Part shown: positions 4,968 through 34,876 of the stretch, piece after piece
Layout: every line of letters starts with the position of its first letter
Position numbering within the stretch: the first letter of the stretch is position 1
Assembly: GCA_026388815.1 (NCBI GenBank)
Contig: JAPLJA010000165.1
Span: forward strand, 1-38,469
Length of the DNA: 38,469 bases
Reading direction: 5' to 3'
DNA from: Pseudomonadota bacterium
GTDB lineage: Bacteria; Desulfobacterota; WTBG01; JAPLJA01
Notes under the pieces: model-generated
Seen by the model: only the letters and a program-made list of their open reading frames with translations
Database searches by the model: none
Told to the model about the DNA's origin: nothing
Made by a program: the position numbers and the translations under genes

Positions 4968-5248
4968 TTTATCAGTTATGATCTACGCTGGACAAAGAGA
5001 AGTCTAAAGAGATTCCCCGGCAGCAGCGTTATTCAAGCAGACCCTTACTGAGCGATTTATTCGGAAAAGGCAAAATCAAGACGAAAACAGCGAGGAACGC
5101 GATTATCCACCAGGCATACATGCGTCGTGAGTGCATCATAGGTACACCTTGAAACTGATTGTAGATCATTTGCACTTGCACTATACTACGATCAGCAAGA
5201 CGGTCAAGGAATTAGAGAAGATAAACTTATATCCCAAGACCTGACCCC
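4953..5248 (+). mobile_element. Decayed IS200-like/RAYT element with 14-bp terminal inverted repeats
   Basis: A 296-bp segment bounded by perfect inverted repeats, GGGGTCAGGTCTTG at 4953-4966 and CAAGACCTGACCCC at 5235-5248. That sequence is a familiar terminal motif of REP-associated tyrosine transposase elements. The inside still encodes the tail of such a transposase (see the entry at 5021). The left edge falls inside an AlkP gene and the right edge inside a dxs gene on the opposite strand, so both genes end exactly at the element. Confidence 0.75.
5021..5244 (+). pseudogene. RAYT (Y1-type transposase) C-terminal remnant, frameshifted
   Basis: The first frame, from 5021, reads RPLLSDLFGKGKIKTKTARN followed by AIIHQAYMRRE. 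A second frame, from 5143, reads YTLKLIVDHLHLHYTTISKT, followed by VKELEK and ending KT* at 5242-5244. Together these match the C-terminal layout of RAYT proteins: the 'RP.L..LF' linker, a conserved helix, and a helix-turn-helix of the kind GYTLKEIADHLGLHYTTVS. A frameshift separates the halves, and the catalytic HUH/Tyr domain has been lost. The stop codon lies inside the right terminal repeat, as is usual for these elements. Confidence 0.7.
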
Positions 5249-5685
5249 TTTTGCCTGCGGCCTTTGGCAAAGCCTATTGCAGCAGAAATGGAGGTTGACG
5301 CATGACCTGCGCCATAGACGTCGTGCTCGCTTTCAGTGATTTTGGGGAAACCGCTGATTCCTCCATATTGGCGTAATGTGTGGAAAATGTGTTTTCTGCC
5401 GGTAATAATTTTGTGTGCGTAACTTAGGTGGCCGACGTCCCAGATTATCTTGTCTCTGGGGCTGTCAAAAAAATAGTGGAGTGCGAGCGTAAGTTCGACA
5501 ACCCCGAGGGACGACCCGAGATGTCCACCGGTTTTTGAAACAGTATTGATAATGAACTTCCTTATCTCTTCAGCCAACCGGATCAACTGGGCCACGGTGA
5601 GTTTTTTTAAGTCATCGGGATTTTCGATTCTTTCGAGTAAGTTTGTCTCAATTTGTGGACTAGTCATCATAGAGGATAATTCCAT
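5249..5685 (-). pseudogene. dxs: Truncated dxs paralogue, N-terminal 140 residues only
   Basis: An N-terminal fragment of 1-deoxy-D-xylulose-5-phosphate synthase. It keeps [28 protein letters not shown] and [19 protein letters not shown], all standard DXS motifs, with Leu where Gln is usual in WDVGHQ. A good ribosome-binding site (CAGGAG) precedes ATG 5685. The frame leaves DXS sequence at the RAYT boundary (5248) before the GDG thiamine-diphosphate motif, so no enzyme can be made. It is clearly different from the intact dxs at 33008-34876 (roughly two-thirds identical by eye), so it is an old paralogue or acquired copy and not a recent duplication of that gene. Confidence 0.85.
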
Positions 5686-6118: not shown

Positions 6119-7579
6119 TTACAGTTTGTTTGAAAAAAACTTTCTGAACAGCATGCTGTCCAAAGGTGCCGCATGAAAATGGTTTTTAAACCGGAATTTT
6201 GCTATCGGATGATAAAGATTGAAAAGCAGGTTTGTTAACGGCTTGTTGATCTTGTATTTAATATTTTTGTTTGAAAATAAAGAGGTAAATTCTATGCTCT
6301 TGAGCTGATTTGCCTGTTTGGTGTTGAGCCAAGATTTAAAATTGAAATACCAGTCTGTCGTGCCGAAATAACCCCACTCCTCAAGGCTTTTGGGTGGAAT
6401 AAAACCATTCTGCAGGGCAAAATCATACATCGGTGTTCCCGGATAGGGGGTATATACAAACACCGGCGTATAAGCATTTTTGTTTTCCCGTACCAGTTGT
6501 AAGCAGGTCTGGATTGTAGAAAACATTTCTTGTTTTGTTTCGGTCGGGAACCCGACAATAAACGTATATTTAACGATAAACGGGTATTTTGCTATTTTTT
6601 TGTTTACTGCAAGCAGATCTTCGACAGTTATTTGTTTGTCCACCATTTCAAGGATACGCCGGCTGCCTGACTCGGCACCGATGTCGACATTGATACAGCC
6701 TGACTTTACCATAAGCTCAAACAGCTCATCATCTATTCTGATGGCTGTATCCACACGCAGGCCAAGGGTTCCCCAGTTGATGTCCAGCTTTTCATCAATA
6801 ATACCCTGCAATATTTCTTTAATCCGGTTCAGGTCGGTAAAGAAATTATCATCTTGAAAATAAACCGTCTTGACCTTAAATTTTTCAACAAAATGTTTGA
6901 GCCGTTTTACGGTTTCTTTGCCTGAGAAAGCCCGCCAGGTCCGCTTGTTAAAATAATTATTATAACAGAAAGAACACTTGAAGGGACAGCCTCTGCTGCT
7001 GACAAAGTCAAGTGATTTGCCCTCAATGTGGAGGGATGCATAGGCGTCCACATTAACCAGTTCATAGGGAAGTTCCGGAAGCTCGTCAAGATTTTTAATA
7101 AAACCACGCTCTTGATTTTTTATAATTTTTCCGTCGTGTTTGTAGTAGATACCTGGTACGCTCGTGAGCGGCTCTTTTTTATCCAGCGCCTCCACAAGTT
7201 CCATAAAGGTTAGATCGCCTTCACGGAGAACTATAATATCAACGTACGGATTTTCCAGGCTTTGATCCGGTATGATTGTGGTATGAACTCCGCCCCATAC
7301 CAGTGGAGCGTTGCTGTGCTTTCTGACAATTGTAGCGGCTTCGAGCGCATGGTGTATCTGTTTTCCCGTCATGCAGGTTATGCCGACGCAGAGCGGGTTA
7401 TTTCGAAGCGCTGTTTCAAGTCGTTGCTGCCAATTTGCTTCCACTCGCTGATCAATGATGGTTACCTGATAGCCCCTTTGATAAGGCATCGCTGCTATTG
7501 ACAGCAGGCCCAAGGGAAGCCGGGCGCCCAGCATATCAAATGTGCCGGTTTTTGGCTGGATGAGAATTATTCCCTTCAT
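6119..7579 (-). CDS. B12-binding-domain radical SAM protein
   Basis: A 486-residue radical SAM enzyme of the BchE/PhpK-like layout: an N-terminal Rossmann cobalamin-binding-like domain (residues about 1-150, with LVWGGVHTTIIPD), the radical SAM cluster motif GCPFKCSFC (Cys 198, 202 and 205), then an SPASM-free barrel with DIGAESGSRRILEMV. The classic DxHxxG cobalamin ligand motif is not visible, as in many members, so a base-off/His-off mode would be needed. Such proteins methylate or rearrange unactivated carbons in lipids, tetrapyrroles and natural products. The substrate here is unknown. It stands alone on its strand, with the divergent GT-C gene 274 bp away. Two more members of the family lie at 27517-30424. 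Upstream Shine-Dalgarno sequence is weak. Confidence 0.85.
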   Translation of the reverse strand: MKGIILIQPKTGTFDMLGARLPLGLLSIAAMPYQRGYQVTIIDQRVEANWQQRLETALRNNPLCVGITCMTGKQIHHALEAATIVRKHSNAPLVWGGVHTTIIPDQSLENPYVDIIVLREGDLTFMELVEALDKKEPLTSVPGIYYKHDGKIIKNQERGFIKNLDELPELPYELVNVDAYASLHIEGKSLDFVSSRGCPFKCSFCYNNYFNKRTWRAFSGKETVKRLKHFVEKFKVKTVYFQDDNFFTDLNRIKEILQGIIDEKLDINWGTLGLRVDTAIRIDDELFELMVKSGCINVDIGAESGSRRILEMVDKQITVEDLLAVNKKIAKYPFIVKYTFIVGFPTETKQEMFSTIQTCLQLVRENKNAYTPVFVYTPYPGTPMYDFALQNGFIPPKSLEEWGYFGTTDWYFNFKSWLNTKQANQLKSIEFTSLFSNKNIKYKINKPLTNLLFNLYHPIAKFRFKNHFHAAPLDSMLFRKFFSNKL

Positions 7580-9234: not shown

Positions 9235-10195
9235 TTATGAAGATTCTGGTGAATATGGGGTATTAGTTCGGTGACCAAAGGGACGGAGGCATGCCGTAAG
9301 CCCTATCCAGATCAGGGAAACTGCTCCTATTCTGATGAAGTTGGGGAGGGGTTGACCAGAGGCATACACAGGTATCATGCGGTTCAAAAATTCCACGGAA
9401 GAATCCATCGGGGTAAAATGATACCCAACATAGTAGTGCAATAGCAGAGATAACGCAATCCAGTGGTAGACACGGACCTTTGAGTGATAGAGAATCGGTT
9501 CAATGATTTTTGTAGTTACCACAATGACCGCTGGCAGCATATAAAGGAAGAGACGGGTCTTATCCGCACCGTAGAACAGAAGGATAAACCCGACTATCGT
9601 TGCTATTAACCAGTGCAGGTTATGCCGAAAGAAGTTCCAGCTATCCGCCATTCTGTATAAAAAAGAATGAGTGGCAGCAGGCCGAGATCGCTGAATATTT
9701 CGAGGATGAAATTTGGCCAGAATTTTTCGTTTGTTACTTGATAAACGAAAATTCCTTGCAGATCACCGATTGCATTATAGGAATTATGAACCTCGATTGC
9801 ACTTCGTACGATGAAGAGTGTTACGGCAGGAAAGAGAATCAAGGTGCTGAGATAGAACAGTGCATTCTTACTCTTACCTCCACGAGTCTGCATGTAGTGA
9901 ACAAATACCACCGGTACAAAAAACAGGATAGATTCTTTTTGCAAGACTCCTACCGTCATTAGAGGTGGAATGAGATGATATTTTTCCGTAGCCATGAGGT
10001 AGAGAAGAGCAAGTATGAACATTTTGGTTTGAAAATCGATATAGAAGGGAGAGTACCACCTAAATACAGGAGAAGATCACCACTGCCCGACTGGAAAGAA
10101 TCTATGCCGAGGAAAGTGGCAATCACAGGAGCAATTCTTATAAGGAGGACAAACAGGAACAGCACCTGTATAGCACGTTGTTTACTGTGCATCAT
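9235..10195 (-). pseudogene. Polytopic membrane protein gene broken by two frameshifts
   Basis: Three consecutive minus-strand frames join into one protein of about 320 residues. The first (start ATG near 10195) runs through DSFQSGSGDLLLYLGGTLP. A shift near 10045 leads to FYIDFQTKMFILALLYLMA. A second shift in the A6 run at 9659-9664 (T6 on the coding strand) leads to LYRMADSWNFFRHNLHWLIA, ending at 9235. Several hydrophobic segments suggest an EpsG-like or GT-C-like membrane protein, but I do not recognise the family. It lies 22 bp downstream of the acetyltransferase gene and would be the last gene of that operon. The homopolymer site means one shift could be a sequencing error. The other is not in a long run. 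Confidence 0.65.
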
Positions 10196-18214: not shown

Positions 18215-18964
18215 ATGAATAACGAAGGTGATGGAATATACTTAACTATTATAATACCGGTCTACAATGAAGCTAAGAAGATCCGCAAGACATTGAAAGG
18301 CATTATCGACTACCTCAAGAAAAAGGATTTTCCCTACCAGGTTCTGATTGTAAATGATGGAAGCAAGGATAATACCGTAGAAGTGGTGGAGAAGTTTTTT
18401 AAAGAGGAGAAATTTGATAACTTTTCTATCCTCGATTTCAAAGAGAATAGGGGTAAAGGGTTTGTAGTCAAGCAGGGGATGTTAGCTGCCAAAGGTGAGT
18501 ACATCCTCTTTATAGATGCTGACTCATCAGCACCTATTGAAGAGTTTGATAAGTTTAGGGCAAATTTTGATAAAGGGTATGATATCTTTATTGGAACCAG
18601 GAAGGCTAAGGGTGAAATAAGGGCAACCAATATTCCCCTCCATAGAGCAATCTTGGGGTTGGGTTTTTCCTTCTTAGCGAGAAAATTCCTCGCCACAAAG
18701 GTCTGGGATTTTACCTGTGGATTTAAATGTTACCAGAAAAATGCGGTACAACCTATTTTTTCCAGACAGGTCCTGGACGGCTGGAGTTTTGATGCGGAAG
18801 ATCTCTTTTTGGCACAAAAACTCGGCTTTAAGGTTAAAGAGATTCCCATTCGCTGGAATCATTACCAGGAAGATACCAAGGTCAATGCCCTGAAGGAGGT
18901 GTTCAAATCCGGCTGGGAACTCCTGAAGATCAGGATCAATGACCTCAGGGGATTATATCGCTAG
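18215..18964 (+). CDS. GT2 polyprenyl-phosphate glycosyltransferase (ALG5/DPG-synthase type)
   Basis: A 249-residue family 2 glycosyltransferase. YLTIIIPVYNEAKKIRKTL and VLIVNDGSKDNT form the nucleotide-binding start, FIDADSSAPIEEF carries the DXD metal motif, and ENRGKGFVVKQGML and DFTCGFKCYQ are hallmarks of dolichyl-phosphate beta-glucosyltransferase relatives. It should load a hexose onto polyprenyl phosphate on the cytoplasmic side, making the donor used by GT-C enzymes such as its neighbours. It is probably co-transcribed with the 15872 gene. It ends tail-to-tail with the minus-strand GT-C gene, and the two TAG stops share the palindrome CTAG (18961-18964). Confidence 0.85.
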   Translation: MNNEGDGIYLTIIIPVYNEAKKIRKTLKGIIDYLKKKDFPYQVLIVNDGSKDNTVEVVEKFFKEEKFDNFSILDFKENRGKGFVVKQGMLAAKGEYILFIDADSSAPIEEFDKFRANFDKGYDIFIGTRKAKGEIRATNIPLHRAILGLGFSFLARKFLATKVWDFTCGFKCYQKNAVQPIFSRQVLDGWSFDAEDLFLAQKLGFKVKEIPIRWNHYQEDTKVNALKEVFKSGWELLKIRINDLRGLYR

Positions 18965-20955
18965 CGCCCACCCTTGTGACTTCTGACGTTCCCACTGAAG
19001 GTATGGATATCCAGAGGTTCGATTCTGATTTCCCCTCTTTCATCTTTTGAAGAGACATAGTAGTTCCTGCCCGGGGAAAAAGGGAGTAATTCGCTATTAC
19101 GCTTGCCGAGATCCCGTGCAAATACGATAGAGTCATTGAGTCCGGGTGAGTTATAGAGAAAACCAGAACCTAAATTCATCCCTTGATATGGATTATCCTC
19201 GCTCTTCTGAAAAATCAGTGCATTCGTGATGCCCATTTGTAGCGTTTTTTTCATGAGCTTATCATCAACTTCCCAGAACGAGTTTGAGTAAAACCTGGAG
19301 AGTTGAGGTAATCTGACGAGACCTGAGAAGGCAAGCGAACACAAGAGAAGGCCAATGAAGGCATTTTTTACGCTCCTTTCGCTGCAATGCCTGGAAAAGG
19401 CAATCTTTTCCATAATCTGAAAAAGGGCCTTCGCTGTTAAAGCAAGAACGAAGGGCAGTGAGATGTAGTAGAAACGCGGACCAAGGCAGAGATCCTGAAA
19501 GAAATAAAAAAAATAGAGAACAGGGGCGGCTAGAAGGCCACAGAGGAGCACATAGTCCTGCCGGTCTTTCTTGAAGAGGAAAGGTGTCCAGAAAATGATG
19601 AGAGGGATGAGAGAGGGAAAAGGCCACTCGAAAAGATTCTCATTGAGGGTGATAAGATTGCTTAAAGTGTTCATGAGTCCTCTCAAAGGAGTATGGGGGG
19701 GTCTGTCCATGATAGGTACACTGAAAAATCCAAAGGAGTGTTTATCACCCCAGCATACTTGGTAACCAAAGAGAAGAGGATCACCATTGGTTACATAATT
19801 GTATAGGAGCAGGATGCCACCCATCATGACAACAGCACAGCTAAAATAGATGAAGGGACGGAAAATCTTTTTAGACAGACTCCAGACGAAGAAGAAAAAA
19901 CCATACAGCATACCTATAATCAAGGCATCGGGGGGACGGATGTTTAACATGGTGCCAAGCGATAATCCTGCAGCAAGGGCATATAGGTTTCCCTCCTCTC
20001 TTTGCGATTTATCCAAGGTATAGAGAAAGAGGAGAAGGAAAAAGAGTGTTGAAACATGATTCATAAAGCTTGCGGACATAAAGAGAACAAAAGTGGATGT
20101 GGAAAATAAGATTACGGAAAGTCGGGCCTCTCTTTCTCCGTAGGATTGAAGGATAATGTTGTAGAGAAGGATGCATGAGAGGGATGCTAAGAGAGGATTA
20201 ATGATCCAGGGCATTTCGGTAATAACACCGATCATTAAAAGGAATGGATGCCCTGGAGGATACTCGGAATACCACCGGTCAGAAAAGATCATATTATCAA
20301 AACGATACCGGAAAAAATCGGCGATTGGTGGTAAAGGGGCTGTCACATGTCCACTCGCGAATATCTTTGTCTGAAAGAGCTGGGCAATTTCATCCTGGAC
20401 ATGGGGAATGTGTTCAAAGACTGTCCATGAAAAAAGGTTTGCAAGGATGAAGACCAACGAAGAGAAGAGCAGGAGGAAATATTTTTGGGGAAGCCTCCAG
20501 ATGATCCTGCAGATTTGAGTAATATGTACCGGGAAGCCGTCAGTATGGCCAAGTGTATAATTGAGAAAAGAAAGGGAAAAGAGAATTCCTACAAAAGATA
20601 CAGAAAGCCAGTGATAGTTACGGAAAGGGTTGGGAGATAACGTTAAATATCTGGTGAGAAGACCCCACTGATTTGCAGGTGTGCAGCAAAGGCCAGTTAA
20701 AAGCAGGAAGCATGTTAGAGAGATAATACCCTTGAGCGAGAAGAGGAAAGTTGTTACTTTCTCATACCCCCCTAAGAGAACGAAGACATTATAGATAATG
20801 AGGAGACCAATGATTGGAAAGATGAAGATAATCAGCCGGGGTGTTTTTGCCTGGGACTCAAGCCATAGAGTGGATATGGCCGAAACAAGAGAGATAATTC
20901 CAAAGTATCTATATCCAATCTTTTGCGAAGTGTGATGATACTCTCCTGATTTCAT
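18961..20955 (-). CDS. GT-C membrane glycosyltransferase, tandem copy A
   Basis: A 664-residue polytopic protein with the ArnT/PMT-type plan. EHIPHVQDEIAQLFQTKIF in the first large loop carries the acidic motif. SEYPPGHPFLL, LNIRPPDALI and TNGDPLLFGYQVCWG follow among about twelve membrane segments. It ends in a short soluble tail containing GSGFLYNSPGLNDSIVFARD. It is likely to transfer a polyprenyl-phosphate-linked sugar to a surface acceptor; acceptor and sugar are unknown. It is the last of three paralogous genes in a row (copies at 21042 and 22879) and is closest to the one at 22879, with about 60% identity by eye in the motif region. No clear Shine-Dalgarno sequence precedes ATG 20955. 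Confidence 0.75.
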   Translation of the reverse strand: MKSGEYHHTSQKIGYRYFGIISLVSAISTLWLESQAKTPRLIIFIFPIIGLLIIYNVFVLLGGYEKVTTFLFSLKGIISLTCFLLLTGLCCTPANQWGLLTRYLTLSPNPFRNYHWLSVSFVGILFSLSFLNYTLGHTDGFPVHITQICRIIWRLPQKYFLLLFSSLVFILANLFSWTVFEHIPHVQDEIAQLFQTKIFASGHVTAPLPPIADFFRYRFDNMIFSDRWYSEYPPGHPFLLMIGVITEMPWIINPLLASLSCILLYNIILQSYGEREARLSVILFSTSTFVLFMSASFMNHVSTLFFLLLFLYTLDKSQREEGNLYALAAGLSLGTMLNIRPPDALIIGMLYGFFFFVWSLSKKIFRPFIYFSCAVVMMGGILLLYNYVTNGDPLLFGYQVCWGDKHSFGFFSVPIMDRPPHTPLRGLMNTLSNLITLNENLFEWPFPSLIPLIIFWTPFLFKKDRQDYVLLCGLLAAPVLYFFYFFQDLCLGPRFYYISLPFVLALTAKALFQIMEKIAFSRHCSERSVKNAFIGLLLCSLAFSGLVRLPQLSRFYSNSFWEVDDKLMKKTLQMGITNALIFQKSEDNPYQGMNLGSGFLYNSPGLNDSIVFARDLGKRNSELLPFSPGRNYYVSSKDERGEIRIEPLDIHTFSGNVRSHKGGR

Positions 20956-21041
20956 GGTGAAAATCTAATGGTCCATTATGAATTGATTTGCCAAATCATT
21001 CATGCGATAACCAACGTCTATCTCCCAGTCCTCTTCTGCCT

Positions 21042-22862
21042 TTAGGTCGACAGTTCAATTAATTCAAAAGCTTCTGGCGGTGACTCAGAGAGTCCGTTTT
21101 GATTGATTATTTTTTTTACCTCTCTTTTGTGTCTATACAAAAATCCTTTCCTGCCTTTGAAGAGCGATAGGAGTTGTGGGTTTTTTTTACCTAAATCTTT
21201 GGCATAAATGATATCCTGGGTTTCAAGATTCGGGGTGTTCATAAAGAAACCACTTCCGAGCAGAAGTTCGTTCTTATCCTGTGCCTCTATAAAAACGATA
21301 GCATTTTTAATTCCTTTCTCTCTGGCAGCTTTTTCAATCCTCCTGTCGACCTGAAGGTCAAGAAGATAGTACTGAGGGATGAGATCAGTAATGTAGGCAG
21401 GAATCGAGAATAGAGACAGCATTCCTGCTATGGTCAGAGCAAGCACGGGTTGATTATCTGTAAGAGAGAACCTCTTTAAGTTTGGGAGTGAGAGCATAGA
21501 ACATAGCTTAACAAAGCAGAGAAGACCCCGGGAAGTAAGGATAACAATGAATGGCGTTACGTTGAAGTAAAATCTCCCCATGAAAAGACGATCATACCAG
21601 CCCCAAAAGAAATAGAGGACCACATTGCACCCAATGATGAGGAGAAAAATCCAATCCCAGAATGTTGTCTTGGCAAAAAGAAATAAAAGCACGATAAAAA
21701 AAATAACTGGTAAAGGCCATTCAAACATGCCTTTATCCGTTAGCCGGATTTGTCTCAATGTATTTACAATTCCAAGAAAAGGGGTGTGAACCCAACCTCC
21801 CCGAATTTCATGAAAGCCTAAAGTATGATTTTGTCCCCATCGCACAATGTATCCGAAGAGAAGCGGATCGCCATTTGTCTTATAGTTATAGAAGAAGAGG
21901 ATGCCTGCCATTAGACAAAACCCGAATAACCACATTCCCAGAATCCTTACTCTAAACCCCTTAGATTTAAAACCTATCACCAGACTGTATACCCCAACGG
22001 GTAGATAGAGAACAATTGCATCTAAGGTACGAATATTGAGGCTCATCCCGAGAGACAAGCCAGAACATAAAGCTAAGAGACTATTTTGCCTTTTAAGGGA
22101 GAGCACAATGGTGGTAACAGAGAGAAGAAAGAAGAACATAGATGACGTATGGTTCATAAGTGAGGCTGAGGTAAAAATGACTTTAGGAGACAGGATAAAA
22201 AGTATCCCTGAAAGAATGGCAGTGGTGCGATCAAACGTTTCTCTACAGAGAAGAAAAACGAGCAAGACTGACAGCGCTGCAAGGAGAGGGTTAACAATCC
22301 ATGGACTTCCGAGCCGCAGTCCAATCATGAGCAGGAAAGAGAATCCTGGCGGGTATTGAGAGTACCATTTGGGTTGAACAATCATATTATCCTCTGCAGA
22401 AGTAAAAAATTCTGGCAGAGGAGGTGGAGGAGCAGAGAGATGACCCGATAAAAATATTTTCGCCTGAAAGAGTTGTGCGATTTCGTCTGTAACTCTCGGT
22501 ACATTGTCAAAGACCAGAGAGGAAACAGCGATAATGATGAGAAAGATAAAAAGGGAACAAAATAAAAGAATCCAGAGGGTATAGTTTTTAAATACCTTGT
22601 TCTCAAGAAAACAGAGCGTATTGTAAAATAGTGAGCCCCGACTTTTTAGACACCTCTGAACAAGGAACCCGGATAAGAGAAGGGTTACCATTACTAAAAA
22701 TAAAGAGGAGCAAAAATCGCGATCAATGCGGGGGTAAAAATAACCGGGATCATTTTTTAAAGAGTGGGTAGTGAACAGTAAGGAAAGGAAAAGAATTGCT
22801 AATTTCCATAAAGGAAGCGTTCTCAAAGAGTTATAAAATGTTCGGTTTATGATGTTTCCCAT
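21042..22862 (-). CDS. GT-C membrane glycosyltransferase, tandem copy B (divergent)
   Basis: A 606-residue paralogue of the flanking genes. The acidic loop reads VPRVTDEIAQLFQAKIF, followed by SQYPPGFSFLL, LNIRTLDAIVLY and TNGDPLLFGYIVRWG. The N-terminus is about 50 residues shorter than in copies A and C. The tail has GSGFFMNTPNLETQDIIYAK, equivalent to copy A's GSGFLYNSPG element, where the bound substrate or donor may be contacted. It is more divergent from A and C than they are from each other, despite lying between them. It starts 16 bp after copy C ends, so the two are surely co-transcribed. No strong ribosome-binding site is seen, so coupling to copy C is plausible. Confidence 0.75.
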   Translation of the reverse strand: MGNIINRTFYNSLRTLPLWKLAILFLSLLFTTHSLKNDPGYFYPRIDRDFCSSLFLVMVTLLLSGFLVQRCLKSRGSLFYNTLCFLENKVFKNYTLWILLFCSLFIFLIIIAVSSLVFDNVPRVTDEIAQLFQAKIFLSGHLSAPPPPLPEFFTSAEDNMIVQPKWYSQYPPGFSFLLMIGLRLGSPWIVNPLLAALSVLLVFLLCRETFDRTTAILSGILFILSPKVIFTSASLMNHTSSMFFFLLSVTTIVLSLKRQNSLLALCSGLSLGMSLNIRTLDAIVLYLPVGVYSLVIGFKSKGFRVRILGMWLFGFCLMAGILFFYNYKTNGDPLLFGYIVRWGQNHTLGFHEIRGGWVHTPFLGIVNTLRQIRLTDKGMFEWPLPVIFFIVLLFLFAKTTFWDWIFLLIIGCNVVLYFFWGWYDRLFMGRFYFNVTPFIVILTSRGLLCFVKLCSMLSLPNLKRFSLTDNQPVLALTIAGMLSLFSIPAYITDLIPQYYLLDLQVDRRIEKAAREKGIKNAIVFIEAQDKNELLLGSGFFMNTPNLETQDIIYAKDLGKKNPQLLSLFKGRKGFLYRHKREVKKIINQNGLSESPPEAFELIELST

Positions 22863-22878
22863 GATATTTTGGTATGTA

Positions 22879-24828
22879 TCAATTATTCTTCAATTGTTCG
22901 ATGATGATTTCGCCCTTTTCATTTTTTGATGCACTGTAGAAAGATCGACCAGGGAAAAAAGGCATTAATTGGACATTCTCTGCACCAAGATCTCTCGCGA
23001 ATATAATAGAGTCATTTAAGTTAGGAGAGTTATGAAGGAAACCAGATCCTACATAATCCTCATAGAAACCTTTACTATCATAGTAATTGATCTTTAGGAA
23101 AATAACGGCATTTTTTATACCTATTTGTTTGGCTTTCTTCATGGGTTTGTCATCAACCCCCCAGTAAGAGTCAGAATAAAAATTATAGAGCTGTGGCATT
23201 CGGACAAGACATGAAAACACAACCGATAAAAAGAGGAGAGCAATCACGGCATCTTTAATATATTTTTCTGAACACGATCTTAGAAGAGAGATACCCTTCA
23301 TTATCTGAAAAAGTGCCTTTGTAGTTAAAATAATAATGAAGGGTAAAGAGATATAATATAATCTTGGGCCAAGACATAAGTCCTGAAAATAGTAAAAAAA
23401 GTAAATTATCGGGGCAGCCAAAAATCCCCAAAAGAGACGATAATCACAGGAGTTTTTTTTGAAGAAAAAGGGTGTCCAAAAGATCACTAAGGGGATGAGT
23501 GAGGGGAGGGGCCATTCAAAAAGATATTGGTTTAATGCAAAGAAGTTGCTCAAAGTATGCACGAGACCTGTCAATGGAGTGTGTGGCGGGCTATACGCGA
23601 TGGGTTCGCTGGAAAATCCGAAGGTATGTTTTTTACCCCACCGTACTTGGTAACCAAAAAGGAAGGGATCCCCGGTTGTTTTATAATTATAAAGAAGCAG
23701 TATTCCAGCCATAATGGTAACAGTAGAGATGAAGGCTAAGAGAGGTAGGTAATTTCTTTTAGCCGGTTTCTCTATAAGATAAAAAATTCCATAAAGTACA
23801 CCTATCACAAGAGCTTCTTGAGGTCTAATGTTGAGCATGGTACCAAGTGATAAGCCCGCAATAATGGCAAGAAAGCTACTGTTATTGTGTTGAAATTTAT
23901 TGAATGTATAGATAAAGAGAAGCATAAAAAAGAGCGTAGTAACATGGTTCATAAAACTTGAGGACATGAACAGGACAAAAGGTGATATGGCAAATAGAAT
24001 GACTGATAATCTGGCCTCTTGTTGTCCATAATATTGGAGAGCAACTTTATAAAGAAGAATGCATGAAAGCGAACCTAAAATAGGATTAATGATCCATGGG
24101 ATCTTTAACAGTAGACCGAGGAGCAAAAAGAATGGATGCCCAGGAGGGTATTGCGAATACCAACGGTCAGCAAAAATTATGTTATCAAAACGGTACTGAA
24201 AAAAGTCAATGATTGGCGGTAAGGGAGCAGTTATATTCCCCATGGAAAATATTTTTGCCTGAAAGAACTGGGAAATTTCATCTTGGACATGAGGAATGTG
24301 CTCAAAGACTTTCCATGAAAAGAAGTTTGTGGTTATAAGAATCATTAATGCAAATAGTAGCAAAAAGTATTTTGTTTGAAGTCTCCAGACCGCTTTACAT
24401 GCCGAGACGATTTTCAACCAAAGACCTTCAGGATGAGAAAGCAAATAATTAAGCAGGGCGAGGGAAAAAAGTATTTCGATAAAGGAGACGGCAAGCCAGT
24501 GAAAATTACGAAAGGGGCTTGGGTTTACTCTTACATACACCGGAATTATTGTGGATGGGGTGTAGCACAGAGCAGTAAAAAATAAAAAACAAATGAGAGA
24601 AATTACTCCTCTTAAAGAAACAAAAAAAGCTTTTACTTTATTCAGGCTGCCTATTAAAGAGAAGAAATTATAAATCATGAGAAGGGTGATCAAGGGAAGA
24701 GTGATGAAAAAATATCTGGGAATATGTGCCTGAAACTCAAGCCATAGAGCAAACAAGAAGGAGATAAAAGCAATACTGCCGAAAAAACCCTTGTTTTTTA
24801 TTTGAGATGCATAACTCTTAATTTGCAT
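22879..24828 (-). CDS. GT-C membrane glycosyltransferase, tandem copy C
   Basis: A paralogue of the two genes that follow it. Motifs are EHIPHVQDEISQFFQAKIF, SQYPPGHPFFLLLG, LNIRPQEALVIG and TTGDPFLFGYQVRWG, with the tail element GSGFLHNSPNLNDSIIFARD. The frame is open to a TTG at 24891, but I place the start at ATG 24828 (giving about 649 residues, MQIKSYASQ...) because the protein then aligns with the start of copy A; ATG 24861 is a second option. It is the first gene of the minus-strand unit, and the roughly 116-bp gap to the divergent YfhO gene must contain its promoter. Its function is expected to be the same as copies A and B with a different sugar or acceptor. Confidence 0.72.
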   Translation of the reverse strand: MQIKSYASQIKNKGFFGSIAFISFLFALWLEFQAHIPRYFFITLPLITLLMIYNFFSLIGSLNKVKAFFVSLRGVISLICFLFFTALCYTPSTIIPVYVRVNPSPFRNFHWLAVSFIEILFSLALLNYLLSHPEGLWLKIVSACKAVWRLQTKYFLLLFALMILITTNFFSWKVFEHIPHVQDEISQFFQAKIFSMGNITAPLPPIIDFFQYRFDNIIFADRWYSQYPPGHPFFLLLGLLLKIPWIINPILGSLSCILLYKVALQYYGQQEARLSVILFAISPFVLFMSSSFMNHVTTLFFMLLFIYTFNKFQHNNSSFLAIIAGLSLGTMLNIRPQEALVIGVLYGIFYLIEKPAKRNYLPLLAFISTVTIMAGILLLYNYKTTGDPFLFGYQVRWGKKHTFGFSSEPIAYSPPHTPLTGLVHTLSNFFALNQYLFEWPLPSLIPLVIFWTPFFFKKNSCDYRLFWGFLAAPIIYFFYYFQDLCLGPRLYYISLPFIIILTTKALFQIMKGISLLRSCSEKYIKDAVIALLFLSVVFSCLVRMPQLYNFYSDSYWGVDDKPMKKAKQIGIKNAVIFLKINYYDSKGFYEDYVGSGFLHNSPNLNDSIIFARDLGAENVQLMPFFPGRSFYSASKNEKGEIIIEQLKNN

Positions 24829-24944
24829 TGTGCAAGCTTTACGCCAGTGAGCGTTGCTCATAATTAAATATGAAAAGAATGGAAAATGCAATCAAGAACA
24901 ATTATCATAATCCCTCAGTAGTTGCAGTCGATTAGGGGAAAAGA

Positions 24945-27143
24945 TTGAATAGAAGTAAATTATGGGTCGTATGGATCATCCTAATAGTTACTCTCCTTCC
25001 TTTCTATAAGCTCGCATTGATGCAGGGGACTATCATCACTGACGATATCTTCGCCAGTGATTTGATGAATGATCGCTATCCCCTCCGTCATTTCCTCGGT
25101 TCAGTGATCAAGGAAGGAAGACTCCCTCTCTGGATTCCCCATATTTATGGGGGATTCCCCCTTTTTGCTGCTGTAGAGGTGGGTAGTTTTTATCCCCCAA
25201 ATCTTATATTCTTTGGCTTTTTTAAGCCCCTGATTGCCCTGAACCTTGTCATTCTTTTCCATATCTTTTTAACAGGATTATTCGCTTATCTTTATGCCCG
25301 ATCCTTGAATCTCGACAGAGTCAGCGCCCTTTTTTCTGGCACCATATTGATGTACAGCGGTTTTTTTATCAGCCACCTCAAGCAGCTCAACATGGTGAAT
25401 GCGGCATGTTATGTTCCACTCCTCTTTTTTATGATTGAGCGCTATCGACAGTACGGAAGCTTTAAGTACCTCCTCTACTTTTCCCTTGTCTTGGGGATCC
25501 AAATCCTGGCAGGTCATCCTCAGATTACCTATTACACAATACTGGGATGCTTAGCTTACTTTTGTTTTCGAGTGAAGGATATCTTCCCTATGAAGAAATC
25601 CCTCACTCGATTATTACTCTTTTTCTTGAGTATAGGCATTGGATTCGGCATTGGGGCTATTCAGCTGATACCTGCTTTACAGCTTTCCTCACTTTCCCAA
25701 CGTTCTGGAGGAGTTACTTATGAGTTTGCAACTGTCTGGTGCAATTACCATCCCCTTGACATTTTAACGTTTCTCTATCCTTTTATTAACGGAAATCCTG
25801 GCACGGCATCCTATGCACTTGGCACAAATAAAGGAGGAAGTGTATTCTGGAGAAGTGGAAGCGTCTTCTGGGAAGATTACGGCTATGTTGGTCTGATACC
25901 GTTTATCCTATCCCTCTTCTTAATATGGAGAGCATTTAAGTCAAATGAATTAGTAAGATTTTATACCTTTTTTCTCTTGGGCTCCTTTCTTCTTGTTATG
26001 GGTTCTTTAACTCCTGTATTTAAAATCTTTTTCTATCTGGTACCGGGCATGAACTACTTTCGTTTTCCCACCCGTTTTCTGCTCTTCACTGATCTCTCCT
26101 TGGCAATCCTTGCCGGAATGGGATTGACGAAGTTTTTTGTGAAGCGTTCTTATCGCATAACTACATTGGTTTTTGTCATAACACTTGCCGACCTGTGGTT
26201 TTTCCAGGTAAGACAAAATCCGGTAGTAGAAATGGAGAAATGGGAAGAAATGCCGGAAACTGTAAAATTTCTCAAACAGGATCAGGGATTGTTTAGGATA
26301 TTTTCTCCTCTCTCCAGGCTTACCCATATCCTTACCTATAGAGAAGCTAAAGGGTGGGAAGGAGACTTATCTCCCTATCTAAAGCAGAGAGAAGTTCTTC
26401 AGCCAAGCAGCAATGTTCTCTACAGTATTTCCAGCTGTGACGGCTATATTAATCTTACCCCTCAATATCTGCTTAAAATATGGGGAGATGAAAAGGTGAA
26501 GGGCTACCTCTCAAATACCTACCGTCTTTCTCCTGATGAAAAAGAAATCCAGATAGATGAAGGATTTGTTAAAGTCTTGAGTCTCTTTAATGCGAAATAT
26601 CTCCTGTCTTGGTGGCCAATCCATCATCCGGACCTCAGGGAGGTCTTCCGGTCCGGGAAAACAATAATTTATTTAAACCAGCAGGTATTCCCCCGGTGCT
26701 TTGTGGTCCCACATTCTTTGGTTATACAAGATGATGATGAATCAGTTCGTTTTCTCTTTTCCGAAAAGTTTTCGCCAGGAAAGACGGTAATCCTCTCAGA
26801 GAATCCAGAAATACCTGAAGAGAGAACATCAACCCCTCAAAGTTCACTGGTCGAGATAAAGGAGTATAGTCCAACAAGGAATATACTCAAGGTGAAGATG
26901 GCCTCCCCTGGTTTCCTTGTGACCTCTGATACGTACTATCCTGGATGGAAGGTGGAGATAGATGGAAAAAGGGGAAGGGTATACCGGGCAAATGTGTGCC
27001 AGCGGGCGGTTTACCTTCCTGTGGGTGATCACGAGGTGAGGTTCTTTTTTGCACCCTCAAGCCTTACCCTCGGTTTCGTTGTGAGCAGTTTTGCGCTTCT
27101 CCTGGTTGTAGTGTTGCTTAGGGTAAGGAGAGATAAGGCATGA
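24945..27143 (+). CDS. YfhO-family membrane protein (GT-C-like)
   Basis: A 732-residue protein of the YfhO family. The first extracytoplasmic loop has ITDDIFASDLMNDRYPLR with its acidic residues, then WIPHIYGGFPLFA and FYPPNLIFF; about twelve membrane segments follow, including GHPQITYYTILG and NYFRFPTRFLLF. The C-terminal beta-rich domain ends with the family signature TYYPGWKVEIDGK and VYLPVGDHEVRFFFAP, then a last helix and a basic tail. Known relatives glycosylate lipoteichoic acid or other surface polymers using lipid-linked sugars. The start is TTG 24945 after AGGGGA. The gene is divergent from the tandem GT-C set, and a 373-bp gap separates it from the radical SAM pair downstream. Confidence 0.85.
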   Translation: MNRSKLWVVWIILIVTLLPFYKLALMQGTIITDDIFASDLMNDRYPLRHFLGSVIKEGRLPLWIPHIYGGFPLFAAVEVGSFYPPNLIFFGFFKPLIALNLVILFHIFLTGLFAYLYARSLNLDRVSALFSGTILMYSGFFISHLKQLNMVNAACYVPLLFFMIERYRQYGSFKYLLYFSLVLGIQILAGHPQITYYTILGCLAYFCFRVKDIFPMKKSLTRLLLFFLSIGIGFGIGAIQLIPALQLSSLSQRSGGVTYEFATVWCNYHPLDILTFLYPFINGNPGTASYALGTNKGGSVFWRSGSVFWEDYGYVGLIPFILSLFLIWRAFKSNELVRFYTFFLLGSFLLVMGSLTPVFKIFFYLVPGMNYFRFPTRFLLFTDLSLAILAGMGLTKFFVKRSYRITTLVFVITLADLWFFQVRQNPVVEMEKWEEMPETVKFLKQDQGLFRIFSPLSRLTHILTYREAKGWEGDLSPYLKQREVLQPSSNVLYSISSCDGYINLTPQYLLKIWGDEKVKGYLSNTYRLSPDEKEIQIDEGFVKVLSLFNAKYLLSWWPIHHPDLREVFRSGKTIIYLNQQVFPRCFVVPHSLVIQDDDESVRFLFSEKFSPGKTVILSENPEIPEERTSTPQSSLVEIKEYSPTRNILKVKMASPGFLVTSDTYYPGWKVEIDGKRGRVYRANVCQRAVYLPVGDHEVRFFFAPSSLTLGFVVSSFALLLVVVLLRVRRDKA

Positions 27144-27516: not shown

Positions 27517-29007
27517 ATGAAAATTCTTTTTATTTCGCCTTCCTGTGAGAACATGGGGATGGAATACCTCTCTGCGGTATTAAAACGGGCCGGCCATCAG
27601 GTTGAACTGGTCTACGATCCTCAACTCTTCAACGATACCTTTGTTTTTAGCAAACCCTTGAGCAGGATGTTTAGTCATGAAAAGAGAATTTTGAAAGAGG
27701 TTGGTATGCACCGGCCTGATCTGGTCGCATTCTCTGTGGTATCTGATAATTATCACTGGGCATGTCAAAGGGCAAAAAAGATCAAAGAAACCTATCGTCT
27801 TCCCATTATCTTCGGCGGTGTCCATCCTTCTTCTGTTCCGGACATAGTCATGCAAAATGATTTCGTTGACTATGTGGTCGTTGGTGAAGGTGAGGGAGCG
27901 GTCGTGGATCTCGCCAATCGTATTAACCGGGGAGAACCCGTTTCAGATATTAAAAACCTCTGGTACAAAGAAAATGGTTCCATTAAGGGGAATGAAGTAA
28001 GGCCTACCATCCAGAACCTGGATGAACTCCCCTTCCCCGATAAAGACCTTTTCTATAAAAAACTCCCCTTTTTCAGGGATGGCTACTACATCATGACGAG
28101 CAGGGGGTGTGTGTACCGCTGTACCTACTGCAACAACTCTCTCTTCAAGAGGATGTACGCCGGGAAAGGCCCGTTTTTCCGGAGGAGAAGCGTTGAGAAT
28201 GTGCTCAGTGAGCTGAAGGAAGCAAAGAAGAAGTACAACATGACCTCCATCCACTTCTGGGACGAAATCTTTGTGAGCGACCACGACTGGCTGAAGGAGT
28301 TTTTAGAGCGATACCGCAGGGAGATAGCCCTCCCCTATGCCTGCTGCATCCATGTAAATTTCATTAATGAAGATGTCGTTGCCATGCTCAAAGAGAGCGG
28401 TTGCTGGCAGGCATTCATGGGAGTCCAGTCTCTCAATGAAGATATCAAGAAGAACATCCTCCACCGGAATGAGACAAATGAGAAAGTGAAAGAAACCATC
28501 CGGCTCTTCAACCAGTACCGTATTTCGATTGTGGCGGAGAACATCATCAACCTGCCCAACGAGAAGGAAGATGATCTCGTGTACATGATGAAGTTCTATA
28601 ATGAAAACCGTCCTTCCCGTCTGTATGTATTCTGGCTTTCATTTTACCCCAAGACTGAGATCGTAGACATAGCCCAGAAAATGGGGATTCTGGATGAGAA
28701 GGCGATTGAAGATATAGAGACCAGAACAAATACCAAGCCGTTCCAGCTGGGCGGGACCATCGAGAACAAGCGGTTTGAAAAATGTCAGGCTATGCTCGCT
28801 TTCGTCAACAAACTGCCCAGGGGCTTGAATGATTTTCTCATTGAAAAGAAGATGTATCGATTCTTTCCTTCTTTTAAGGGGTTTTACCATTCTTTGGTCC
28901 GCATCATGGACCGCAAAAAGAGGTTTGATATCAGCGCCTACCGGATCACCCGCGTGTACTGGCTCTTCATGTTCAAAAAGCTCAAGGGGCTTCTTTATGG
29001 GATGTGA
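27517..29007 (+). CDS. B12-binding-domain radical SAM protein (first of an overlapping pair)
   Basis: A 496-residue protein with an N-terminal cobalamin-binding-like Rossmann domain (FGGVHPSSVPD and VVVGEGEGAVVDL around residues 99-132) and a radical SAM domain with GCVYRCTYC (Cys 198, 202 and 205). FMGVQSLNEDIKKNIL is the usual strand-and-turn following the barrel. There is no DxHxxG ligand motif. The C-terminal 90 residues are basic and helical, as in members of unknown function. The substrate could be a lipid or sugar of the surrounding glycan locus, by context only. ATG 27517 follows AGGGAGAAC. The next gene starts inside its last codons, so the two proteins are translationally coupled and may form a two-step or heteromeric system. 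Confidence 0.85.
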   Translation: MKILFISPSCENMGMEYLSAVLKRAGHQVELVYDPQLFNDTFVFSKPLSRMFSHEKRILKEVGMHRPDLVAFSVVSDNYHWACQRAKKIKETYRLPIIFGGVHPSSVPDIVMQNDFVDYVVVGEGEGAVVDLANRINRGEPVSDIKNLWYKENGSIKGNEVRPTIQNLDELPFPDKDLFYKKLPFFRDGYYIMTSRGCVYRCTYCNNSLFKRMYAGKGPFFRRRSVENVLSELKEAKKKYNMTSIHFWDEIFVSDHDWLKEFLERYRREIALPYACCIHVNFINEDVVAMLKESGCWQAFMGVQSLNEDIKKNILHRNETNEKVKETIRLFNQYRISIVAENIINLPNEKEDDLVYMMKFYNENRPSRLYVFWLSFYPKTEIVDIAQKMGILDEKAIEDIETRTNTKPFQLGGTIENKRFEKCQAMLAFVNKLPRGLNDFLIEKKMYRFFPSFKGFYHSLVRIMDRKKRFDISAYRITRVYWLFMFKKLKGLLYGM

Positions 29008-30424
29008 CCTTCTTCTGATTAATCCTCCTCTTTCCATGGAGGAGATCTACGGAGCTTTTGCCGATCTTGGCAGCAGGGTCCCGCATCTGGGTCTGTGCAC
29101 GATAGCCGCAGTAGTCAGGAGAGCAGGGTTTACCGTGAAGATTCTCGATGCACCCGCCTTAAACCTGGGATTCAAAGAGACGGTAGAATTCGCAATGAAG
29201 GAAAAACCAAGGTTTGTTGGAATCTCGGCCGTTACTGACTCCATCCTGATAGCCTATTCTCTCGTCAATACTCTGAAATCCCAGTCTCTGCAATCGAAGA
29301 CAATCATTGGTGGTGCTCATATAACGGCATTGCCCGAAGAGACGTTCAATGAATGCGAAAGTCTTGATATTGGCGTTATCGGAGAGGGTGAAGCCACCAT
29401 TGTAGAAATTCTCTCAGGAAAGAATTTACGTGGGATAAATGGAATAATCTTTAGAGAAGAGGGTACTGTTTATCTCACACCTCCCGGGGAATACGTGCAA
29501 GATTTAGATAGCCTTCCATTCCCCGCCTGGGATCTCTTACCCCAGCTTGAGAAATACTACAGACCTTCTCCTCATATGTATCTGCGACTCCCTTCCACCT
29601 CACTCCTGACTTCGCGGGGTTGCCCAAACAGGTGTAGTTTTTGCGTCATGGCATTGAGCGGTAAAAAATTTCGTGCTCACAGCGCAGAATATACGATAGG
29701 AATGATAGAACATGTGATGAAAAATTATCATATCAGGGATATTATCTTCTACGATGACAATTTTCTCCTCGATAGGAAAAGAGCGGTAGAAATATGTGAG
29801 GAAATAATAAGGAGGAAACTGAATATCACATGGTCATGTCTGGCTCGTACAGAAATAATGTCGAAGGATATACTCAAGCTCGTAAAAAGAGCAGGATGCT
29901 GGCAGATTGCCTATGGCATTGAAAGCGGAGATCAGAGAATATTAGATATTCTTAAAAAAAATACTCGTGTGGAAAAATCAGAAGAGGTATTAAGACAAAC
30001 AGTAGAAGCAGGGATAAGGACTCGTGGTTTCTTTATGATTGGTGTTCCTGGCGAGACAGAAGAGTCAATTGAAAAGACCATTGATTTTGCAAAGCGCTCA
30101 TGTCTGAATGATTTTCAGGCAACTTTTTTTACCCCTTTTCCAGGTACTGCATTCTATCAGAATATTAATCAGTACGGTGAGTATACAAAAAACTGGAGCA
30201 ATATGAGTACCTGGGCACCGGTATTTGTTCCCCACGGCCTCACACTCGATAAACTCGTCAAGTACCATAAAAAAATGCACCGCGATTTTTATTTCAGGCC
30301 TAAAATCCTCTTCCAATATGCAACCCGCTTTGCTACACGGCCTTCCATACTTTTAAACTCGTTGAAAGCCGGACTTAAATTATTTGCCTATTCCTTCCTC
30401 GGAATGCAGAAAGGGAAGGCATAG
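28997..30424 (+). CDS. B12-binding-domain radical SAM protein (second of an overlapping pair)
   Basis: A 475-residue radical SAM enzyme. The start is ATG 28997 (MGCDLLLINPPLS), not the upstream 28829, because residues before it read as a shadow of the previous gene and AGGGG lies 8 bases ahead. It overlaps the preceding stop by 11 bp. The cobalamin-like domain holds INPPLS, IIGGAHITALPEE and VIGEGEATIVEIL. The cluster motif is GCPNRCSFC (Cys 209, 213 and 216), followed by IIFYDDNFLLDRKRAVEIC and YGIESGDQRILDIL. It resembles the hopanoid/BchE-like branch in order of motifs but lacks DxHxxG. ATFFTPFPGTAFY is typical of the family. The substrate is unknown. Confidence 0.85.
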   Translation: MGCDLLLINPPLSMEEIYGAFADLGSRVPHLGLCTIAAVVRRAGFTVKILDAPALNLGFKETVEFAMKEKPRFVGISAVTDSILIAYSLVNTLKSQSLQSKTIIGGAHITALPEETFNECESLDIGVIGEGEATIVEILSGKNLRGINGIIFREEGTVYLTPPGEYVQDLDSLPFPAWDLLPQLEKYYRPSPHMYLRLPSTSLLTSRGCPNRCSFCVMALSGKKFRAHSAEYTIGMIEHVMKNYHIRDIIFYDDNFLLDRKRAVEICEEIIRRKLNITWSCLARTEIMSKDILKLVKRAGCWQIAYGIESGDQRILDILKKNTRVEKSEEVLRQTVEAGIRTRGFFMIGVPGETEESIEKTIDFAKRSCLNDFQATFFTPFPGTAFYQNINQYGEYTKNWSNMSTWAPVFVPHGLTLDKLVKYHKKMHRDFYFRPKILFQYATRFATRPSILLNSLKAGLKLFAYSFLGMQKGKA

Positions 30425-33007: not shown

Positions 33008-34876
33008 ATGAGCACCATTTTAGAAAAGATTAATACACCCGAGGAGTTAAGGAAGCTCGATCCAAAAGACCTCCCGTTGCTTGCTGAGGAACTGAGGGAG
33101 ATGATTATCTCCACGGTTTCTCAAACGGGCGGACACCTGGCTTCAAGTCTTGGCGTGGTTGAACTCACCATTGCCCTCCACTACGTATTTGACACGCCCC
33201 GAGACAAGATTATCTGGGACGTGGGGCACCAGTCGTATGCCCATAAAATCCTGACGGGAAGAAAGGAACTCTTTCGCACCCTCCGTCAGCATGGTGGTTT
33301 GAGCGGGTTCCCCCGGAGGAGGGAGAGCATCTTCGATACCTTTGATGTGGGGCACAGCAGCACCTCTATTTCTGCTGCCCTGGGCATGGCAGAGGCACGG
33401 TGCCTGAAGAAAGAGAAGTACAAGATCATAGCCGTTATCGGAGATGGTTCGCTCATGGCCGGTATGGCGCTGGAAGGGCTGAACCATGCGGGGCATCTGA
33501 AGAAGGACATGATTGTTGTTTTAAATGATAACGAGATGGCTATCTCTTCCCGCGTAGGCGCTCTCTCTTCATACCTCTCGCGTCTCATCACCGGCCAGAC
33601 CTACAGTAGGTTCCGGAAAGACATGCAGGCCTTTTTCAAGTCCCTGGGTGAACCGTTCTACAAGTTTGCAAAACAGACAGAGGAATTTTTTAAGGGGATA
33701 TTTGCGCCCGGTGTCCTCTTCGATGAGCTGGGGTTCCGATACGTAGGGCCCATCCCCGGCCACCGGATTGATTATCTTCTTGAAAATTTTAAGAACATCA
33801 AACACCTGGAAGGGCCTATCCTGGTCCACGTGGTTACCACCAAAGGCAAAGGGTATCAGCCGGCAGAGAAGGATCCAACCAGATTCCATGGGATAGGCCC
33901 CTTTGAGAAGGAAAGCGGCGTCCCTCTCGCTTCAAAACCTGGTCCCTCCTTCACCGGGGTTTTCAGCGAGACCCTGGTGAAGCTGGCTAAACAAGATGAA
34001 AGGATTGTGGCAATCACAGCCGGTATGAGCAACGGGACCGGACTGGACAAGCTGGCGAGTGAATTCCCGGAGAAATTCTACGATGTCGGGATTGCCGAGC
34101 AGCACGCAGTGACCTTTGCGGCAGGCATGGCTGTCGAGGGGCTCAGGCCGGTAATTGCCATTTACTCAACCTTCCTCCAGCGATCCTATGACCAGATTCT
34201 GCATGATGTCTGCCGCCAGTCACTCCCTGTCACCTTCGTCCTGGATCGGGCCGGCATCGTAGGAGAGGACGGTTCGACCCACAACGGTCTCTTTGACTTC
34301 TCCTATCTGAGGCATATGCCCAATATCATCATCATGGCGCCCAAGGATGAGAATGAACTCCAGCACATGCTGAAGACAGCGATTGATTCATCAAAGCCAG
34401 CCGCAATCCGCTATCCGAGAGGAAAAGGAATAGGAGTACCTCTCGATGAAGAAATCAGGAACCTTGCCGTGGGGAAGGGAGAGGTGATAAGCGAGGGAAA
34501 AGACGCAGCCATCGTAGCCATCGGCTCCACCGTGTACCCCGCACTATCTGCCGCCCAGGAGCTTAAAAAGGATGGAATAGCGTGTACCGTGGTCAATGCC
34601 CGTTTTGTAAAGCCCCTCGATGAGGAACTCATCTGTACCCTTGCCCGCGAGATCGGGAAGATACTCACCGTCGAAGAGAATGTCCTGGCCGGCGGATTCG
34701 GCTCAGCAGTTCTGGAGCTCCTCAACAGGAAATCTATCCCTGCTGAAAAAGTTACGTGCCTGGGAATTGATGACTGTTTTGTAGAACACGGCCCTCAGGA
34801 GTTCTTGAGAAAGAAGTACGGGATAGATTCTTCCGGTATCGTTCAGGCGGTAAAGGCACTCCTGCAGAAGACATAG
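33008..34876 (+). CDS. dxs: 1-deoxy-D-xylulose-5-phosphate synthase (intact)
   Basis: The full 622-residue thiamine-diphosphate enzyme that joins pyruvate and glyceraldehyde 3-phosphate in the first step of the MEP isoprenoid pathway. [14 protein letters not shown] and [16 protein letters not shown] lie near the start, [20 protein letters not shown] with LNDNEMAIS is the GDG...N cofactor motif, and [17 protein letters not shown] contains the catalytic Glu of the pyrimidine-binding domain. The transketolase C-terminal domain ends [13 protein letters not shown]-like. ATG 33008 follows AGAAGGG. The remaining early dxs stub at 5249-5685 is a second, broken copy, so this one should be the functional gene. 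Confidence 0.96.

Follow-up and report, generated by a model that had tools for sequence, protein, structure and literature searches.

The window analyzed here, the whole stretch of 38,469 nucleotides, belongs to a draft genome of 3.49 Mb in 316 contigs with an estimated contamination of 5.26%. It contains three paralogous genes, hereafter called A, B and C, that lie side by side between a GT2 glycosyltransferase gene and a YfhO-family gene (Table 1). The first-pass annotation had described three tandem GT-C paralogues at this place, and this description is borne out by the ORF list, in which all three are intact and on the same strand, as well as by the family matches and pairwise identities given below. 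The intergenic gaps deduced from the ORF coordinates are of 16 and 86 bases, and C-B-A would be the order of a probable shared transcription. The longest ORF of C has a TTG start at 24891 and encodes 670 residues; the ATG at 24828 lies 21 codons further in and aligns near the start of A.

Table 1. Position and strand of the three paralogues and their immediate neighbors in the window, with the basis of each assignment.
Feature	Position	Strand	Basis
Copy A, predicted GT-C_A glycosyltransferase, 664 aa	18961..20955	-	ORF, PMT_2 match, fold model
Copy B, predicted GT-C_A glycosyltransferase, divergent middle copy, 606 aa	21042..22862	-	ORF, PMT_2 match, fold model, trees
Copy C, sister of A, 649 aa from the ATG at 24828	22879..24828	-	ORF, PMT_2 match, trees
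GT2 glycosyltransferase, convergent; resembles polyprenyl-phosphate sugar synthases	18215..18964	+	Glycos_transf_2, 1.1e-31
YfhO-family membrane protein, divergent neighbor of C; another GT-C-type candidate	24945..27143	+	PF09586, 1.9e-15

The stop codon of the GT2 gene overlaps that of A by four bases (CTAG at 18961-18964). The NCBIfam matches of its product are all below the cut-offs, including those to PgfS and to the dolichyl-phosphate hexose transferase, and the YfhO-family protein is likewise below the cut-off for PgfM1/PgfM2. Further off, on the strand of A, are found a hexapeptide acyltransferase, a second GT2, a DegT aminotransferase and a GFO/IDH/MocA dehydrogenase, which together would fit the supply of an amino sugar. 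Several other features of the window deserve mention. Three distant B12-binding radical SAM paralogues (6119-7579, 27517-29007 and 28829-30424), 23-29% identical, flank the glycosylation genes on both sides. In the ORF at 5227-5685, the match to DXP synthase is limited to the first 132 positions of that enzyme; the ORF is 65% identical to the full-length DXS encoded at 33008-34876 and is probably a truncated second copy. Finally, 929-2638 contains a short ORF whose match to SGSH_C (sulfatase C-terminal) is below cut-off, followed directly by a DDE transposase; this ORF is possibly a disrupted gene.

At the amino-acid level, A and C are 59.6% identical (386/648), against 37.0% for A and B (212/573) and 35.7% for B and C (205/574). 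Third codon positions follow the same order, with 45.1% for A-C, 30.5% for A-B and 30.7% for B-C. Among the aligned sites, 158 are the same in all three copies and 187 group A with C, whereas 35 group A with B and 40 C with B; these last two counts show that B is equally distant from A and C. In 50-column windows with at least 16 residues compared per pair, the A-C identity is always the highest, save at columns 375-425, where A-B equals it at 50%; the windows at the ends hold 3 to 5 residues of B and are uninformative for this profile. The motifs that the first-pass annotation had reported as shared nearly word for word by A and C are indeed present in both, but for the most part they occur throughout the family and were lost from B. 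EHIPHVQD, for instance, is also found in other members of the family and thus mostly reflects retained ancestry, so that alone it does not prove the A-C link, which the tree does. The shorter N-terminus noticed for B is genuine, since its open frame allows only about 9 more codons (615 aa), and the predicted catalytic Asp is reached at residue 126 in B versus 188 in A and 183 in C (ATG numbering).

Homologues were searched with each copy. With C as query (E <= 1e-20) they were found in 8 of 58 class and phylum genomes, the source genome included; with B (E <= 1e-12) in 10 of 98 class and phylum genomes; and with A (E <= 1e-12) in 7 of the 17 searchable genomes of the class. The genomes searched include no other genome of the source's family. 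A profile search of genome contigs with the family alignment A1 gave 80 loci, whereas a search of genome contigs with C alone found no relative. Five of these loci had no ORF passing the profile search and were dropped (L096, L117, L119, L120 and L123). L126 and a 736-aa ORF beside the member of L071, both under 200 bits, were left out of the tree, as were L015-L022, which duplicate named records. We built a quick tree of 79 rows and a careful one of 29 rows, the latter from 26 hand-picked rows among the 76 locus rows plus A, B and C; both sets were re-aligned by the tree tool. A search for viral copies returned four stretches matching the pattern, none of which was confirmed.

The quick tree pairs A with C (99, starred) inside a starred clade that also contains one gene each of the genomes G005 (L048) and G009 (L049). 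The careful tree gives the same result, with 100/98 (starred) for A and C and 100/99 (starred) for the four-row clade. On the 29-row tree, AU tests reject A and B as sisters (p 3.2e-5), the result that would have spoken against the earlier grouping, as well as C with B (2.4e-5) and the three copies as one clade (5.0e-5). The claim that the outer copies are closest to each other is therefore well founded, on both trees and on an identity of 60%. B belongs to no starred small group and has a long branch (1.56 and 1.66 in the two trees). In the careful tree it groups with two class members and the A/C clade (92/94, unstarred); given this weak position and a branch of about 1.6, how close B is to the A/C group is unsure. 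As judged from these trees, A and C split after their lineage had separated from G005 and G009, relatives from two other genera of the class that carry a single copy. A is slightly nearer than C to both relatives (53.1 vs 50.4% and 48.2 vs 45.7%), a difference that points to neither copy as the parent.

All three proteins pass the PMT_2 cut-off (PF13231, 26.1 bits), with 31.5 bits for A, 27.6 for B and 38.4 for C. The AlphaFold models of A (pLDDT 89.0, pTM 0.91) and B (pLDDT 80.9, pTM 0.86) match the GT-C_A enzymes Pmt4, ArnT, ALG12 and the OST catalytic subunits with Z above 20. The model of A superimposes with Pmt4 at Z 24.6 (rmsd 3.8, 351 residues aligned), with ArnT at Z 21.8 (4.2, 410) and with OST catalytic subunits at Z of about 21; that of B gives Z 25.3 with Pmt4 (3.4, 347) and 24.1 with ArnT (4.5, 425). 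Foldseek agrees for A, with 27 matches at E <= 0.001. The family profile matched no solved structure at E <= 0.001, the four distinct sequences returned at E 0.0074 to 0.14 bearing unrelated names, and the fold therefore rests on the predicted models. According to these models, A and B have the GT-C_A fold, the membrane module of ArnT, PMT and the OST catalytic subunits, and C is expected to share it through its identity of about 60% to A. The fold matches begin near residues 145-159 of A and 76-98 of B; the helices ahead of them thus make up an N-terminal addition that is shorter, and also poorly modelled, in B.

The first periplasmic loop of the module carries an Asp (A188, B126, C183) that is found in 78 of the 79 rows, the remaining one having a gap. 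In PimE, the base is proposed to be the equivalent Asp, located at the site of the catalytic Asp of ALG6, ArnT and PglB (PMC12041525). Fold match and invariance suggest that the family Asp is its equivalent, and we predict that it acts as the base. All three copies also retain N253, H300, R340, N386 and R494 (A numbering). Several positions conserved elsewhere are altered in B, for example 428, where Met replaces Gly two residues ahead of its Arg430. We also asked whether one copy had lost a catalytic residue; no such loss was seen among the conserved charged columns, and the single basic column that B lacks, the one aligned to A316, is not invariant. Two other signals were set aside. The invariant Asp is followed by Glu in A, B and C and by Ala or Ser in the two nearest relatives, which suggested a concerted change, but 26 of the 78 rows that have a letter there, counting A, B and C, show DE, which thus says little. 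B shares 16 of 61 A=C states (0.26) versus 14 of 66 (0.21) for the next row, the highest value but not strikingly so.

The source genome has no clear member of this family besides A, B and C; a fourth match, on contig C267, is weak (E 1e-5, 28% over 83 residues). PMT_2 itself is matched 28 times there at E <= 0.001 and 3 to 28 times across the 17 class genomes, so richness in GT-C proteins is common to several members of the class. The same genome encodes two PMT_2-matching proteins of 644 and 645 aa, 62% identical, on different contigs (L132, 3077-5011, and L133, 2908-4845). A second array lies on contig C265 (L128, 2162-16910). It consists of six long head-to-tail paralogues with a GT-C-like front and C-terminal TPR repeats. 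Interspersed among them are two pieces of 227 and 315 aa with TPR repeats only, and the contig end cuts the last paralogue. Four of the six match PMT_2 and their layout is TMTC-like, with one weak TMTC_DUF1736 match. The closest pair in this array is not always adjacent: the genes at 2162 and 10899 are 61% identical over 576 aa, with paralogues between them. The order of A, B and C, with its outer sisters, thus looks like the ordinary birth and death of tandem genes.

How did the two sisters come to lie on either side of B? Gene conversion between A and C across B, one of the two explanations first put forward, would agree with an A-C identity that is high across the whole gene while B differs. 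However, the identity profile shows no sharp boundary along the genes, and no long identical tract exists: A and C share at most 15 identical nucleotides in a row (permutation p 0.72) and at most 5 identical codons (p 0.63). Identity at four-fold sites is near chance, with 34 of 92 sites identical versus 27 expected from composition, and GC3 is 0.483 in A vs 0.371 in C. On these tract, silent-site and composition tests, we reject a recent conversion. Since silent sites are nearly saturated, the A/C duplication is old and an ancient conversion would leave no visible trace; conversion could then have occurred only as an old event, since erased, and we regard it as highly improbable. The other early explanation, the duplication of one outer copy across an existing B, fared better. 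An A/C duplication and an older B lineage stand, whereas the presence of B in place at that time is compatible with the data but unproven, because a sister pair is outermost in one out of three random orders of three genes, by our own reasoning, and the sample includes no close relative. The stretches around the G005 and G009 genes carry one A/C-type gene each, with no B-type gene within the stretches fetched. Among the 75 loci with a detected member (80 fetched), two, both from Ignavibacteria, contain a further member in tandem, and these two pairs are orthologous copy by copy (100 each, starred, in the 79-row tree); the flanks reach 4 kb or more on each side at only 38 of the 75. The trio is the largest array of its family in the sample and only the source genome carries it.

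Duplication of a block followed by loss is an ordinary route to outer sisters. Here, a block made of the A/C ancestor and B could have been duplicated in tandem (X-B-X-B) and one B then lost, a possibility that the non-adjacent nearest copies on C265 encourage; nevertheless, the window holds no relic of a second B, tblastn with B matching only A, B and C, and the trio is tightly bordered by other genes at its ends, so that we hold this route to be possible but rather doubtful. We see slightly less chance that A and C were already neighbors when B came to lie between them, through transfer or rearrangement. B does lie outside the A/C clade in both trees, the searches of class and phylum genomes found no close relative of it, and no B lies near the A/C-type gene of either single-copy relative. 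Yet its GC of 0.406, between those of A (0.436) and C (0.369), gives no signal of an alien composition.

Altogether, the explanation we favor, with a probability of about 75%, is that of three GT-C_A (PMT/ArnT-like) paralogues acting as lipid-phosphate-sugar transferases, in which B represents an older lineage and A and C would derive from one duplication that came after the genera of G005 and G009 had branched off, and would have diverged independently for a long time since. The trio is a case of ordinary tandem paralogy, that is, of gene-family growth in a GT-C-rich lineage. One could also speculate, tentatively, that GT-C enzymes of different subfamilies repeatedly expand in tandem by birth and death in this poorly known lineage, as in the trio and the C265 array, and so form an evolving set of extracytoplasmic enzymes that diversifies the cell surface. 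The analysis settles a simple question of relationship, with two sisters and one older cousin that all have the conserved residues. What is known of GT-C enzymes is unchanged by it; the trio nonetheless offers a clean, testable case for how duplicated GT-C enzymes divide donors or acceptors.

Concerning function, A, B and C are most likely lipid-phosphate-sugar-dependent transferases. Each copy would transfer a sugar from a polyprenyl-phosphate donor to an acceptor at the outer face of the cytoplasmic membrane. The three may add sugars one after another or deliver one sugar to several acceptors, as the first-pass annotation proposed. The GT2 enzyme, encoded on the strand opposite to the trio, is a candidate maker of the lipid-linked donor. 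GtrA (PF04138) had no match in the source draft genome (0/1), the control search being positive in 8 of 14, and the 138-aa ORFs at 9235-9651 and 9606-10022 did not match it either.

The closest curated family is NF047440 (LA_3751/LA_3752 family putative glycosyltransferase), best or second-best by profile for the three copies and matched at E <= 0.01 by 33 of the 36 members of the family alignment A2; the scores of 41.2 (A), 23.5 (B) and 44.7 bits (C) are far below its 200-bit cut-off. Literature searches on LA_3751/LA_3752 found no papers, and those on tandem paralogues and polyprenyl gave nothing relevant among the matches listed. With the PMT_2 and GT-C_A transferases (ArnT, PMT, ALG12, PimE), the models of A and B have in common the fold of the catalytic module and the invariant Asp at its start. 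They differ from the solved GT-C_A members by an identity of only about 10% and by extra N-terminal membrane helices, about 145 residues in A and 85 in B, beyond the listed matches. A parallel can also be drawn with the multi-component transmembrane glycosylation systems, described in the review PMC8035078 as a GT-A enzyme, a GtrA flippase and a GT-C enzyme. As in these systems, GT2, YfhO-type and PMT_2-type genes are found together here; the classic three-component set is nevertheless incomplete, as no GtrA flippase was found in the genome, and the genes do not form one transcription unit. Unlike these systems, the locus carries three GT-C paralogues of the same family in a row.
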